A DNA stretch of 64,000 nt from Anas platyrhynchos (Eukaryota; Chordata; Aves; Anseriformes; Anatidae). Positions 1 through 23,371 of this stretch are shown here, piece after piece. Made by a program: the position numbers and the translations under genes. The DNA is taken from contig NC_092601.1 of assembly GCF_047663525.1 (NCBI RefSeq), positions 17,383,501 to 17,447,500 on the forward strand, in the 5' to 3' direction. The notes beneath the pieces are model-generated. The model was not told the DNA's origin. It saw only the letters and a program-made list of their open reading frames with translations, and did no database searches. The first letter of the stretch is position 1, and each line of letters starts with the position of its first letter.

Positions 1-154
1 GCCGGCCGGGCCCCCTCAGCTCAGCCCGCGCTCCCGCTCAGCTCCTGTCGCAAAAAGCGGCGCGATTCCCCTCAGCGTTACGACCTGCCGCAAAGCACCG
101 CGGCGGGGTGGGGGGGGGAACTACCCCTCCGATTGCACTGCGAGGCGGGGGGGG
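1..154. promoter_or_regulatory. GC-rich left edge of a probable bidirectional promoter
   Basis: This stretch is very GC-rich with C and G runs and has no supportable coding frame. In mammals TOP3A lies head to head with SMCR8, so the left edge may be the 5' flank or untranslated first exon of TOP3A on the minus strand; I saw no TOP3A protein sequence, so this is inference from known synteny. At 120-141 there is a degenerate ZNF143-like motif that begins ACTACCCCTCC and ends GCACTGC, which looks like the oldest member of the array that follows. Confidence 0.4.
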
Positions 155-411
155 ACTACAACTATAATGGCGTCGTGGGGTCAGAACTACAACTCCCGTG
201 ATGCCGCGCGGCGGGGAGGACTACAACTATAATGGCGCCATGGTGCGGAACTACGATTCCCATGATGCTGCGCGGCGGGGAGGATTACAATAGAACTACA
301 ACTATAATGGCGCCGTGTGGTCAGAACTACACCTCCCATGATGCCTCGCGGCAAGAAGGACTACAATTATAATGGCGCCGTGTGGTCAGAACTACAACTC
401 CCATGTCGCCC
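120..411 (+). promoter_or_regulatory. Tandem array of ZNF143/THAP11-type motifs (about 65-bp units)
   Basis: A roughly 65-bp unit is repeated. Each full unit begins ACTACAACTATAATGGCG (155-172, 220-237, 295-312; a variant at 360-377) and then carries a motif of the form ACTACAACTCCCATGATGC (186-204, 250-268, 326-344 and a shorter one at 391-405), with the degenerate copy at 120. The second motif matches the SBS element bound by ZNF143 (Staf) and THAP11; the first contains the ATGGCG core of YY1 sites. The array sits directly upstream of the likely SMCR8 start site. SBS elements are known to be enriched in bidirectional housekeeping promoters. The motif and repeat are seen directly; binding is inferred. 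Confidence 0.8.
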
Positions 412-480
412 CGCGCGCCCCGGCCCGCCGCGGAGCCCCGGCGAGGCCTACCGGCGGCGGCCCGGCCGTCAGGTGAGCCC

Positions 481-491
481 AAGATGGCGGC
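481..491 (+). promoter_or_regulatory. YY1-type initiator/5'UTR site
   Basis: The sequence AAGATGGCGGC is a full match to the YY1 consensus found at or just downstream of the start site of many housekeeping genes. It lies about 100 bp upstream of the SMCR8 start codon, so transcription probably begins near 440-480. Confidence 0.6.
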
Positions 492-513
492 GGCGCCGAG
501 GCGGCGGCCGTGA
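484..513 (+). other. Nine-codon upstream ORF in the SMCR8 5'UTR
   Basis: The ATG inside the YY1 motif opens a short frame (MAAAPRRRP, then TGA at 511-513) that ends 79 bases before the SMCR8 start. If the mRNA begins upstream of 484, this frame would be met first by scanning ribosomes and could lower SMCR8 translation. It is probably a by-product of the YY1 motif rather than a made peptide. Confidence 0.35.
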
Positions 514-592
514 GGGGAGCGGGGCCGGGGCTGCCCGGGCGGCCTCGGCGGCGGCGGCGGCGGCTGCAGGCGGCTGCCGAGGCCCGGTCGCT

Positions 593-3500
593 ATGATCGG
601 AGCCCCCGACGTGGTGGCGTTGGCCAGGCAGGAGGAGGAGGCGGCGGATGGCGGGGACGGGGCGTGGAGGGAGCCGCCGCTGCCTGAGGAGTACTCGGTG
701 CCTCTGGCGCCTTTGGGCGGGCACGGGGCCAACCCCTGGGCCCGGGCTGGAGGCCGCAAATTCCTGCGGGATTTCATCCTGGTGGCCGAGTTCTCGGAGC
801 AGGTGGGGCCGCAGCCGCTGCTCACCGTCCCCGACGACGCCAAGGTGCCGGGCAGCTTCGACCTGAATTATTTCTCGCTTCGCATCATGTCGGTGGATTA
901 CCAGGCCTCCTTCGTGGGCCACCCGCCTGGCTGCGCTTACCCCAAGCTGAATTTCGTCGAGGATTCCAAGGTGGTGCTGGGGGACTCGAAGGAAGGCGCC
1001 TTCGCCTACGTGCACCACCTGACGCTCTACGACCTGGAGGCCCGCGGCTTCGTGCGGCCCTTCTGCATGGCCTACATCTCGGCCGACGAGCACAAGATCA
1101 TGCAGCAGTTCCAGGAGCTCTCGGCCGAGTTTTCCAAAGCCTCCGAGTGCCTGAAGACGGGCAACAGGAAAGCGTTCGCCGGCGAGCTGGAGAAGAAGCT
1201 GAGGGACCTGGAGTACACCCGCAGCGTGCTGCACAACGAGACCGAGATACAGAAGAAAGCCAACGACAAGGGGTACTACACCACACAAGCCATCGAGAAA
1301 GCCAACGAGCTGGCCAGCGTGGAGAAATCCATCATCGAGCACCAGGACCTGCTGAAGCAGATCCGCTCCTACCCCTACAGGAAGCTGAAGGATTCCGAAT
1401 TCCACCCCTACGAGCCCGAGTGCGCCCCGGAGCAGGCCGGCAGCGTGGGCAGCGATCAGGAATTGGCCGCCCCCGACCTGGCTGAGGCGGGCGAGGAGAT
1501 CCCCTGCTCCCACCTGCCCTCCTACACCCCCAAGCTCATCAAAGCCAAGTCGGCCAAGTGCTTCGACAAGAAGCTGAAGACACTGGAGGAGCTCTGCGAT
1601 ATTTATTTCTTCACCCAGACCCTGGACCAGCTGCAGCAGATCGAGAGGACATTCAGGGGCGACGTGTGCTACCTCCTGACCAACCAGATCAGCCGGGCGC
1701 TTTTGAAGCAGCAAAGCATCACCAACTTCCTCTTCGAGGACGCGTCTTTTCTGGACGAAAAAGCCCCCGAAAAGCAGCACCGAGGCTGCCAGGAGCTCGG
1801 GCAAGATGCCGTCGACGGAAAGTGCCCGGAGGAGTCCCCAGCCCCGAAAGTGGTCATCAGCCTGGGGTCCTACAAATCCAGCGTGGAGTGCGTGCCCATC
1901 AAGATGGAGCAGGACATCGATGACCCCCCGGAATCCACGATGACCGAATCTGTAACTTTTGAGCCCCAGGAGAACCTGGACTATCTCGATGCCGACCTTA
2001 AAGGCAGCATCAGCAGCGGTGAGAGCATCGAGGTTCTCGGCACGGAGAAATCCGCCTCGGGGCTGCCCAAATCGGAGAGCCAGGCCAGTTTGCCCATCAG
2101 CCCCAGTCCCCAGGTGGGCAGGAGCAAGGTGGGCAGCAGGAGGACCGTCAGCGAGGACAGCATCGAGGTGCTCAGCACCTGCCCTTCCGAGGCGCTCATC
2201 CCGGAGGACTTCAAAGCGAGCTACCCAAGTGCCATTAACGAGGAACCTTACGCCGACGAGGAGGGGGGAGGCCTCCGCTTCGCCCCCAGGTTCAGCCCAG
2301 CCGAGGAGCGGGAGGACGACCCCGACCCCGCAAATCCCACGGGGGTCGATTCCGCCTGCTGCATCGGCAAGGAGAGCCCTGGTTTCCTCGAGCCCCTGCC
2401 CGGCCTGGCCCACAAGCTGTGCGACGAGGACGGGGTGGTGAGGATCCCCCCGCAGCCCTCCCGGCAAGCCGAGCAGGGCCCCGAGGGCATCCCGGGAGGG
2501 CTTTTACCCCACGAGCTCGCCCCTCGCTCCCCGCTGGGCGGCGGGGAGCCGAGCAGGAGCAGCCTGGACGAGTGCTCGGACTCCACGAGCTACATCAGCA
2601 GCGCCGCCTCCACTTGCTCCGACCGCACGCCCTCTCCCGCTCGCCCCCCGTGCCCGGCCAGCGAGAGGCACAAAAAAAAAGCCGGGCAGAACGCCCTGAG
2701 GTTCATCCGGCAGTACCCCTTCGCCCACCCCGCCATCTACTCCCTGCTGAGCGGCAGGACCCTGGTGGTGCTGGGGGAGGACGAGGCGATGGTGAGGAAG
2801 CTGGTGACCGCCCTCTCCATCTTCGTGCCCAGCTGCGGGGCTCACGCCAAGCCCGTGAAGCACTGGGGCACGGCCCCGCTGCACGTGGTGGATTTCCAGA
2901 AGTGGAAGCTGATCGGGCTCCAGAGGTAAAGCCAGGGGGTTGTGCGGGGTAAAATTTTGGTCCCCGAAGGGTTTCAGGGAGGATTTGGGGTTTGGTTTTG
3001 GGGCTGGTCTGAAAATGAAGCGCTCCTGGAGGGCCGGTGTGTGCTGCTCCCTCCCCTTCCAAAACTCTTTTAACGTTTCTGGCTAGAGAAAACCTTTCCA
3101 GCTGTTTTCCTCAGGAGGTGGTAACACAGCCACGAGGTCGGTAGGTTCGAAATTGGTTAGAAACCGGAGGAATAGCTTGTGCCAGAGCCTGTGGCACCTG
3201 TATTTCTGTTTCCTCGGAAAAAACACCTGAGGACCGGCTGGAACAGCTCCCGACGGAGCGTTTCTGAGTCAAAACACAGAAATTTGCGTCCTGGGCTGCG
3301 TAGCCTGGTGGTTGTGGCTGCCTGAACCGCCCCGAGCTGGGATCCTGCCCTGATTTCTGTGCTGGGGAGGCTGACAGCTCGGCCAGCAGCTGCTTCCCAG
3401 CTCTGCTGGCGAGGTCTTCCAGAGCCCCGAGTGTTTGGTGGCTGACGAAGGCTTGCGGTTAGATGCTATTTTTATGAACAAAAGCATTTCGAGGAGCTGC

Positions 3501-4760
3501 CTGCAACCTGTGTCAGGCATTTAATTAACATTCCACGGGGAGGAGGGCAAGTGTGGGGTTTAAGGCAGGTGCTGGCAGCAAACCCTTCGTGGGGGGGGGC
3601 TTGGGAAGGAATTTGGGGGGCAAATCAATGATTGTAGGGGTGCTGCAGCTGCCCGGGCACCTCTCCCACCAGCTCGGGGTGCTCCTGGGCTGCTTCTCCT
3701 GGAGAGATCCGAGCCAGAGGAGCAGAAGAGGTTGCGTGGGCTCCCAGTTTGCATTTAAATCACAATAATTGAGGCTTGGTGAGTAATTGCACACACGGTG
3801 AGGGTGCCAGGGGGTGTTGCACCTGGGTGAGAAATGCCCAGGGAATGGAGGGCTCCCCGTGCAAAGGGAGGGCAGGGGGGTTGTGCCCCACCCCGGGGCA
3901 GCTCCCTGCCCACGCAGCCACGCGGGTGGAAAGCAGAAGTGGTGGCAGGGAGGTTCCTGCTTCTCGTTGCCTCCTCCAGGAGCTGCCAGATCCGCTTCTG
4001 GTCGCCGGAGATGTCTCTTCGCTTCCTCCCCGGCCTCGTTTCTGTGTCTGCCAGGGAGGAACTGTCCCAAAGGGCAACACGTGCCTGGAGCAGCGCGTGG
4101 GGGGGGCCAGGAGGATGAGATTTCCTCGGGGTTTGGCTGATTGGGGAGGCCGTTTGGCCATCCTCACCCACGCCAGGCTTTGTGAGCTCGCAGGACACCT
4201 CGGGGGTGATTCAGACAGAGGGAAAACACGCGTGGTGCGGGCACAGACAGCCTGCTGCGTGTCCCACAGCTTTCCTCCAGCTGTAACCTCTCTCTTGCTG
4301 TTTCAGGACGGCGTCCCCTGCGGGGGTGAACGTGCTGCACGCCCTCAGCCGCTACAGCCGCTACGTGAGCATCCTGGACGCCGACAGCAAGACCCTGCGC
4401 TGCCCCCTCTACAAGGGCGCCCTGGTGGCCCGGCTGGCGGACCACCGCACCCAAATCAAGCGAGGCAGCACCTACTACATGCACGTCCAAAGCGTCCTCA
4501 CCCAGCTCTGCTCCAAAGCCTTCCTCTTCACCTTCTGCCACCACTTGCACCTCCCCATCGCCGAGAGGGAGCCGGAGGAAGCCGTGGCGAGCCGCCGGCT
4601 CAATTTCCTCAAGCACCACCTGGGCCTCGCCAACGAAGATCTCAAAATCGTGCAGTATTTAGCCGAGCTGCTGAAGCTGCAGTACATTCAGGAACCCGGC
4701 CGGGGGGGGAATCCCCTGCTCAGATTTGACTACGTCCCCAGCTTTTTGTACAAAATCTAG
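593..4760 (+). CDS. SMCR8: SMCR8, C9orf72-SMCR8-WDR41 complex subunit
   Basis: Coding exons are 593-2925 and 4307-4760, joined in phase at a GT-AG intron (acceptor tttcag), giving 928 aa against about 937 in human. SMCR8 is a longin/DENN-fold protein that forms a cytoplasmic complex with C9orf72 and WDR41; the complex acts as a GTPase-activating protein for small GTPases and regulates autophagy and lysosomes. The start MIGAPDVVAL matches the human start MISAPDVVAF, with G at -3. An open in-frame stretch back to 317 runs through the promoter repeats and is not taken as coding. Residues 58-210 (DFILVAEFSEQVGPQPLL onward) are the conserved longin part; the arginine finger described as human Arg147 is kept in DLEARGF at residue 151. 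The DENN C-terminus ends in FDYVPSFLYKI. The middle (about 350-740) is serine/proline/acid-rich and less conserved. Identification is firm. Confidence 0.97.
2926..4306 (+). other. SMCR8 intron
   Basis: A single GT-AG intron splits the arginine codon of the LQR-TASPAG junction. It is moderately GC-rich, with C-rich and G-rich stretches, and I see no further exon, RNA gene or named repeat in it. Confidence 0.9.
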
Positions 4761-14904: not shown

Positions 14905-15990
14905 ATGGAGAGCGTCTCTTCTTCCCCATCTCCCTTCCCGGGCACTTCTCCCACCGTGCCTCCTGCGAACGCCACTGCCCACGATCACTACTCCGGCCTC
15001 CAGAAGAGCATGCATGTGCTCTCCATGGTGGTGTACAGCGTCGCCTGTCTGCTGGGGGTGACGGGCAACGGCCTCGTCATCTGGATTGCGGGCTTCAAGA
15101 TGAAGAAGACGGTGAACTCGGTGTGGTTCCTCAACCTGGCCATCGCCGACTTCATCTTCACCTTCTTCCTGCCCCTCAGCATCGCCTACACGGCGCTGGG
15201 CTTCCACTGGCCCTTTGGGAAGCTCCTGTGCAAGCTCAACAGCACCATCGCCTTCCTCAACATGTTTGCCAGCGTCTTCCTCCTGACGGTCATCAGCATG
15301 GACCGCTGCGTGTCGGTGGCTTTTCCCGTCTGGTCCCACAACCGCAGGAGCCCGGAGCTGGCGGCCAGGATTGCTCTGGGGACGTGGGTCCTGGCCCTGC
15401 TCCTCAGCTCCCCGTACCTCGTCTTCCGTGACACCGTGGTCAGCTCCAGGAACGTCACCAGCTGCTACAATAATTTCGCCCTGTCCGATGACTACACGTC
15501 CGAGGCAACGCGGAGGCTGTGGAGGATGCGGCATAAAGCCATGATCATAACCCGCTTCCTCTGCGGCTTCCTCGTCCCCTTCACGGTGATCCTCCTCTGC
15601 TACAGCATCGTGGCCGTCAAGCTGAAGAGCAGGCAGTTAGCCAGCTCCGCCAAGCCCTACAGAATCATCATTGCTGTCACGGCCTCGTTTTTCCTCTGTT
15701 ACTTCCCCTATCACGTCTTCTCCTTGCTAGAGATATCCCAAAACTCTTCCAGCCACGAGATGAAAATGGCCCTTTACATAGGGATCCCCTTGGTTTCCAG
15801 CCTTGCCTTCTTCAACAGCTGCATCAACCCCATCCTCTACGTGTTCGTGGGGCCGGATTTCAAGGAGAAGTTTCGCCAGTCCATCCTGTCCACCTTCGAA
15901 GGGGCTTTCAGCGAGGACTCGGTCCTGGCCAGCCTGACCAGCAGGAGGAAGTCCAGATCTGCTTCAGAAGCGGAGGTCCCGAGGGTCTGA
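14905..15990 (+). CDS. Chemerin-receptor-like G protein-coupled receptor
   Basis: A single uninterrupted coding exon gives 361 aa. A splice acceptor (gatttcag) ends at 14889, only 15 bases before the ATG, a common layout for chemoattractant receptors with a noncoding first exon. Seven membrane segments are visible. Key features: N-glycosylation sites at about N22 and N183; GNGLVIW in TM1; NLAIADF in TM2; the Cys109-Cys187 disulphide pair; DRC in place of DRY at 133-135, as in chemerin and formyl-peptide receptors; FFLCYFPYH in TM6; CINPILYVF in TM7; and a serine/arginine-rich tail. Similarity to CMKLR1 is the best I can recall (VWFLNLAIADF, SSPYLVFRDT, RFLCGFLVPF). CMKLR2 (GPR1) and FPR are less close. 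It is probably a Gi-coupled leukocyte receptor. I leave the symbol empty because it may be a paralogue rather than the CMKLR1 orthologue. Confidence 0.9.
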   Translation: MESVSSSPSPFPGTSPTVPPANATAHDHYSGLQKSMHVLSMVVYSVACLLGVTGNGLVIWIAGFKMKKTVNSVWFLNLAIADFIFTFFLPLSIAYTALGFHWPFGKLLCKLNSTIAFLNMFASVFLLTVISMDRCVSVAFPVWSHNRRSPELAARIALGTWVLALLLSSPYLVFRDTVVSSRNVTSCYNNFALSDDYTSEATRRLWRMRHKAMIITRFLCGFLVPFTVILLCYSIVAVKLKSRQLASSAKPYRIIIAVTASFFLCYFPYHVFSLLEISQNSSSHEMKMALYIGIPLVSSLAFFNSCINPILYVFVGPDFKEKFRQSILSTFEGAFSEDSVLASLTSRRKSRSASEAEVPRV

Positions 15991-23129: not shown

Positions 23130-23371
23130 CGGGGCCAAGATGGCGGCGGCGGGGAGCTCCCCTCAGCCTTAGGCGGGAAAGGCGATGGGGGGGGGTGAGG
23201 GCGTCGCCTCGCGCCCGCCCCTCGCGCTCCCCCCCCCCCGCTCCGTGAGGCGCCGCCGCCATCTTGCGAGCGGCGCAACCGGAGGGGCCGAACTCTGCCG
23301 CTGCCTCCGCCTCTCCCCGACCCCTCCGGCCGGGGCCGCTTCACCCGGGGCCGGGGGGCCGGAGCCGGCAG
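23130..23371 (+). promoter_or_regulatory. PRPSAP2 CpG-island promoter and noncoding first exon
   Basis: A strong GC-rich island carries a YY1 site AAGATGGCGGC at 23137-23147 and an inverted one (GCCGCCATCTTG) at 23255-23266. A consensus splice donor (CAG then GTAAGG) after 23371 most likely closes the noncoding first exon. The coding start lies 3.2 kb downstream at 26541. Start-site position is inferred. Confidence 0.6.

Follow-up and report, generated by a model that had tools for sequence, protein, structure and literature searches.

The TOP3A-SMCR8 locus

The window, which is the whole 64,000-nucleotide stretch of Anas platyrhynchos DNA analysed here, begins at C15:17,383,501 in a genome of 1.26 Gb and 42 contigs. 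It carries SMCR8 on the plus strand, with a first coding exon at 593-2929 (frame open to 2929) that matches the Pfam Folliculin family and PDB chain 6lt0_B (phmmer; query 1-778 against chain residues 1-787, 1100.8 bits), and a last coding exon at 4326-4757 (+) that matches two PDB SMCR8 sequences (phmmer; E 2.1e-69 and 3.4e-69). About 120 bp from the left edge of the window, and approximately 180-470 bp ahead of the SMCR8 start codon, lies an array of short repeated elements; a further 10 kb to the left was fetched from the same genome (L004). On the minus strand of this fragment, phmmer identifies the first coding exon of TOP3A by its matches to PDB 4cht and 4cgy (E 1.5e-13, the alignment running through RKVLCVAEKNDAA); its likely start codon is at L004 9383, corresponding to window position -497. 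The start codons of TOP3A and SMCR8 are about 1.09 kb apart and head to head, in line with the distance of about 1 kb used to define a divergent arrangement. Since TOP3A (minus) and SMCR8 (plus) flank the array, a putative divergent promoter is supported here, and the bidirectional arrangement of the two genes proposed in the preliminary description of the window is borne out by the phmmer matches. TOP3A is a topoisomerase of the nucleus and the mitochondria and SMCR8 is a partner of C9orf72, both being of medical interest.

A possible TOP3A splice donor at about window position 0, on the minus strand, would place an untranslated TOP3A exon just to the left of the array. Another possible splice donor, CAG/GTGAGC, follows the array at 467-482 (+) and precedes the SMCR8 start codon.

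Ten further frames of the window were chosen by codon usage, and seven of them match Pfam families: serine hydroxymethyltransferase exons (minus strand, three frames), SACK1 exons (minus strand, two frames), a rhodopsin-family receptor nearest to the chemerin receptor (plus) and a sodium:solute symporter exon (plus). The hydroxymethyltransferase, symporter and SACK1 frames presumably belong to SHMT1, SLC5 and FAM83 genes, respectively. The receptor is encoded by a long open reading frame at 14968-15954 (+), of the chemerin/formyl-peptide type (best PDB match 7ykd_A, E 2.9e-93), which has the hydroxymethyltransferase exons on one side and the symporter exon on the other.

Organisation of the array

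The interval between TOP3A and SMCR8 contains a tandem array, reported by TRF as a repeat of period 65 with 3.9 copies at 140-405 and 76% matches. In the unit alignment, positions 155-425 are composed of four copies of a 65-bp unit, starting at 155, 220, 295 and 360, preceded by a degenerate left copy at 120; the earlier proposal that a whole promoter module had been amplified in tandem is supported. Each unit has two ACTAC boxes, one in an A element (ACTACAAYTATAATGGCG) and one in a B element (ACTAC..YTCCC..). The boxes start at 120 (degenerate), 155, 186, 220, 250, 295, 326, 360 and 391, so that the eight intact boxes are spaced 30-45 bp apart with A and B alternating, and all elements of the array are oriented toward SMCR8. 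The step from A to B is 30-31 bp and that from B to A is 34-35 bp, or 45 bp across an insertion, and the intervals between B sites are 66, 64, 76 and 65 bp, in agreement with the spacing of about 65 bp first described. The long third interval (76 vs 65 in the unit alignment) contains the insertion ATTACAATAGA at about 284-294 (+), which resembles a partial extra box; it had been located correctly and given as 10 bases, its size being 11 bp. The eight intact ACTACR boxes are found in the 306 bp of 120-425, where first-order models predict 0.006 (composition of the flank), 0.03 (whole window) or 0.33 (the array itself).

The element ATAATGGCG, recognised from the start as a part of the duplicated unit, occurs in every one of the four units (155, 220, 295 and 360). 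In each of the four it includes an ACTACAA box of its own, which the first reading, limited to the B sites, had overlooked. Beyond this shared box A and B resemble each other with P 0.010 (gapped) and 0.018 (ungapped). An ancient half-unit duplication making A and B cousins is suggestive only, as an alternative offset scores no worse (11/19 vs 11/22), and we do not claim the additional relic copy that might be seen near 79-111 (P 0.010, post hoc).

Searches for other kinds of element gave no Rfam family over 1-3000, no tRNA by tRNA search, no match of the unit pattern in viral contigs and no bacterial-type promoter or terminator in 1-700, the last with a bacterial model that is unsuited to vertebrate DNA.

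The B sites

B elements have the form ACTACAACTCCCATGATGC and mostly continue into CGCG. The sites were scored against the M4 consensus ACTAYRNNNCCCR, the 18-base ZNF143 SBS consensus YWCCCRNMATSCMYYRCR as quoted in the excerpt of PMC5006282, and the 27-base SBS2 reference AAACTACAATTCCCATTATGCACCGCG as quoted in that of PMC7154149. B2 (186-210), B3 (250-274), B4 (326-350) and B5 (391-415, nearest to SMCR8), all on the plus strand, match M4 at 13/13 positions, SBS at 16, 15, 17 and 15 of 18 and SBS2 at 21, 22, 21 and 21 of 27, respectively. Their Ronin motif scores are 13, 13, 13 and 14 of 15. The leftmost site, B1 (120-144, +), appears to be a degenerate relic, with M4 11/13, SBS2 16/27 and SBS 10/18 in register, the last rising to 14/18 when the site is shifted by 2 bp. 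The SBS2 arrangement, in which YWCCCRNMATSCMYYRCR follows ACTACA, is seen in four of the five B sites. The five ZNF143-type motifs of the preliminary description (120, 186, 250, 326 and 391) are consequently to be read as four strong sites and a degenerate one, and only one of five is weak where weakness of three would have spoken against the array.

An SBS score of 15/18 is reached by 4.5e-4 of background positions and is by itself not rare, so that it is the combination of M4 and SBS which counts. With a 19-base pattern allowing up to three mismatches, the window gave four sites, and 100 shuffles gave 0.20 on average and never more than 2. The best SBS2 score elsewhere in the window, on both strands, is 18/27 compared to 21-22 for B2-B5, and in simulations of about 1,000,000 positions no score of 20 or more occurred with the composition of the flank and none of 21 or more with that of the array itself. 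The 10 kb upstream of the window hold no site of the same type. On these scores the identification of the B sites as ZNF143-type is supported, and they are better named putative THAP11/ZNF143 composite sites.

The A elements and YY1

The A elements consist of a THAP11-type box and an ATGGCG core. By reading of the sequence and the unit alignment, A1 (155-172), A2 (220-237) and A3 (295-312) are the exact 18-mer ACTACAACTATAATGGCG, and A4 (360-377) is ACTACAATTATAATGGCG, with one change; all four are on the plus strand. They match M4 at 10/13 positions, SBS at 9-10/18 and SBS2 at 13-15/27. The exact 18-mer occurs at three places in the 1.26-Gb genome, all of them within the TOP3A-SMCR8 array, and its reversed control at none; as well under one occurrence is expected by chance, this mainly indicates that the exact A element is not dispersed.

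A scan for YY1 sites had been suggested in the preliminary description. The ATGGCG core is there in every unit, and the remainder of the YY1 consensus CAAGATGGCGGC (from a table row in the excerpt of PMC12810902) is missing: the A elements agree with it at 8/12 positions. Outside the core the agreement is no better than chance, and it is the core alone that points, weakly, to a YY1 role for A. A full match to CAAGATGGCGGC is seen by reading of the sequence at 480-491 (+), downstream of the array. It is overlapped by a short upstream open reading frame of nine codons (484-513, ATG GCG GCG ... TGA; A at -3 and G at +4) ahead of SMCR8. The same consensus is also present at 23140 (+) and 23262 (-), about 120 bp apart, possibly marking a second divergent start region.

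Divergence between the units

In the alignment of the four units 23 of the 65 columns are variable, distributed as 1/18 in the A element, 6/13 in the linker from A to B, 6/19 in the B motif and 10/15 in the B tail. A is the best-kept stretch of 18 columns (22/47 variable elsewhere, hypergeometric P 0.0012, or 0.03 if any run of 18 columns is allowed; in units U1-U3 alone 0/18, P 0.0036), and A and B motifs taken together have 7/37 variable columns (P 0.0016), these being tests chosen after the alignment had been seen, on four copies the last of which has its tail at the array edge. Conservation of the B motif does not clearly exceed that of the linkers (variable columns 6/19 vs 16/28; in U1-U3 4/19 vs 11/28).

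Pairwise, the units differ at 8-19 of 64-65 positions (12-30%), so that the duplication is neither very recent nor false. Tandem copies are a common place for assembly errors, and a false tandem duplication in the assembly might for this reason be considered; the differences are far above those of false duplication or read error and make it most improbable.

The main rival of a functional array is neutral growth of the repeat around one working site. An ancestral ZNF143/THAP11 site would have been functional, slippage or unequal exchange would have multiplied the 65 bp around it, and the extra copies would add little, the work being done by one or two sites, probably those nearest to SMCR8. 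GC-rich promoters are a common place for tandem repeats, and the 65-bp period with its 11-bp partial duplication, the decay of B1 and the B-motif columns, which vary about as much as the linkers, all fit such a history. What it accounts for less well is that, with units this far diverged, four of five B sites keep the complete M4 motif and the A 18-mer varies in a single column. We regard neutral growth as doubtful, though as the strongest of the alternatives.

The degree of conservation of A could also mean that selection acts on A (ACTACAAYTATAATGGCG) as the binding site of a different factor, for example E2F or TBP, and that the B sites matter less. A2-A4 contain GGCGCC and all four units contain TATAA, which we take to be E2F and TBP motifs, and A fits YY1 poorly outside its core. 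This explanation leaves aside that the agreement of the B sites with the combined THAP11/ZNF143 motif is far beyond chance and that the ACTACAA box is common to A and B, and we consider it unlikely.

Related clusters in the genome and helical phase

A genome-wide search for pairs of exact ACTACAAYTCCC sites separated by 40-70 bp returned 10 matches, compared to 4 for the reversed control, so that the pair count alone is weak evidence of enrichment. The ten matches fall at eight places, none of which is the TOP3A-SMCR8 array, because its exact boxes (186 and 391) are too far apart. In 3 kb around the eight places 2, 4, 3, 4, 13, 3, 3 and 2 M4 sites were counted. Three or four M4-type sites per 3 kb are present at L006, L007, L009, L012 and L013 (contigs C3, C10, C15 at 8.13 Mb, and C26 twice); at L006 one of the four is on the opposite strand, and at L009 two overlap.

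The locus with thirteen sites (L010 1350-1947, about C17:771799-772396, minus strand) is an array of ACTACAACTCCCAGCATGCC-type sites with one extra copy that has no ACTACA box. Its ACTACAACTCCCAGCAT core is well kept and the columns of the sites are mostly kept. Multi-copy clusters therefore recur in the genome and, one of them having 13 copies, the TOP3A-SMCR8 array is not the largest. An A-type element (ACTACR, 4-8 bases, ATGGCG) was not found in any of the fetched loci L004-L016. Pfam scans of 10 of the 50 listed frames near the C17 array and of 10 of the 38 near the C10 cluster gave no match. Nine more frames, taken from four loci, yielded a single match, to a class I (M) tRNA synthetase exon that lies about 2 kb away from the C36 pair.

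It had been suggested that the sites of the TOP3A-SMCR8 array could face the same side of the DNA. Resultants calculated for helical pitches of 10.4, 10.5 and 10.6 bp were 0.15, 0.07 and 0.43 with all five B sites and 0.09, 0.33 and 0.67 with the four good ones; with so few sites and such dependence on pitch, a one-face arrangement is not supported. In the C17 array, where repeats of similar length make the sites non-independent, the values are 0.11, 0.56 and 0.69, and helical phasing may be present there and perhaps in arrays of this kind more generally.

A proposed model of the promoter

We propose, with a probability of roughly two in three, that the divergent TOP3A-SMCR8 promoter contains, in this array, a homotypic THAP11/HCFC1/ZNF143 cluster formed by tandem duplication of a 65-bp module to four or five copies. 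The sequence, the copy number, the gene arrangement and the conservation of columns are observations; binding, additive output, direction and start sites are what we infer. In the module a THAP11/ZNF143 composite (B) would be preceded, at a distance of about 31 bp, by another THAP11-type box that is fused to an ATGGCG core (A). Any intact B could bind ZNF143 or, alternatively, THAP11 together with HCFC1, and each A would be recognised by a THAP11-type protein and perhaps also by one of YY1 type. Several boxes would raise the odds of a bound activator and keep the region open, driving initiation toward SMCR8 and, in the opposite direction, TOP3A.

In the excerpts available of the papers concerned, M4 and SBS2 sites are described as occupied by THAP11 with HCFC1 or by ZNF143 (PMC5006282, PMC4082612, PMC12698189), a cited title ties HCFC1 to ZNF143, THAP11, YY1 and GABP, Ronin is stated to multimerise and to be able to bring sites together in vitro (PMC10329844), and ZNF143 is credited with bidirectional activity (PMC7154149, citing Anno 2011). 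It is from the use of these sites by THAP11 and ZNF143 and from Ronin multimerisation that we derive the predicted higher occupancy and open promoter of a cluster with more boxes. The excerpts disagree on how the two proteins relate: THAP11 and ZNF143 exclude each other in PMC4082612, and Zfp143 is a Ronin antagonist in PMC10329844, whereas in PMC12698189 Thap11 and ZNF143 form a composite and Thap11 supports ZNF143. ZNF143 is further described, in the excerpt of PMC11118474, as hiding nearby YY1 sites and repressing, so that neighbours in the array might compete rather than add. The mean distance from an M4 site to the start downstream of it is given as 81 bp in PMC10329844 and as about 89 bp in PMC5006282; measured from B5, and together with the YY1 sequence at 480, these distances predict an SMCR8 start near 470-490.

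A bolder version, which we hold only tentatively and think improbable, takes A (ACTACAAYTATAATGGCG) as a true composite in which a THAP11-type box is joined, with constant spacing, to the ATGGCG core of a second factor; A would alternate with the THAP11/ZNF143 composites, and selection on the array would act on A as its unit. In that case amplified arrays based on THAP11, reaching 13 copies, would make up a separate promoter class in bird genomes, tunable by copy number.

Comparison with known systems

In the literature searched, which covers few subscription papers, no report of an array between TOP3A and SMCR8 and no paper on a bidirectional SMCR8-TOP3A promoter was found. SMCR8 together with ZNF143 gave a breast-cancer signature only, judged by its title; among the matches listed for ZNF143 minisatellites and for ZNF143 tandem repeats in chicken promoters nothing was relevant by title, and the literal strings of the A and B elements led only to papers unrelated by title. 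Most human M4 genes have one copy of the motif and DFFA has two, according to the excerpt of PMC5006282. If sites are usually single, as that excerpt indicates, the four-copy and 13-copy arrays offer a natural copy-number series, suited to testing how THAP11 and ZNF143 share one sequence.

The TOP3A-SMCR8 array is an unusual example of a known promoter type and no new type of element; it stands apart by its alternating A element and by its position between divergent genes. It resembles M4/Ronin (THAP11-HCFC1) promoters in that B2-B5 match ACTAYRNNNCCCR completely, directly upstream of a gene, and differs in combining four M4 sites with four A elements that share the ACTACAA box without the CCC part (10/13). 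Compared to the ZNF143/Staf sites, B2-B5 are closest to SBS2 AAACTACAATTCCCATTATGCACCGCG (identity 21-22/27, vs 17-18/27 to SBS1), with TGATGC in place of TTATGC in B2-B4 and a tandem arrangement interleaved with the A element. The YY1 elements near starts have an exact counterpart at 480-491 and share the ATGGCG core with all four A elements, which have TATA before it and CC or TC after it instead of CAAG and GC. The 13-copy array on C17 likewise has ACTACA.CTCCCAGCAT sites arranged head to tail on one strand and separated by diverged linkers, but is without an A-type element, has a spacing of 33-83 bp and a CpG ratio of 0.21.
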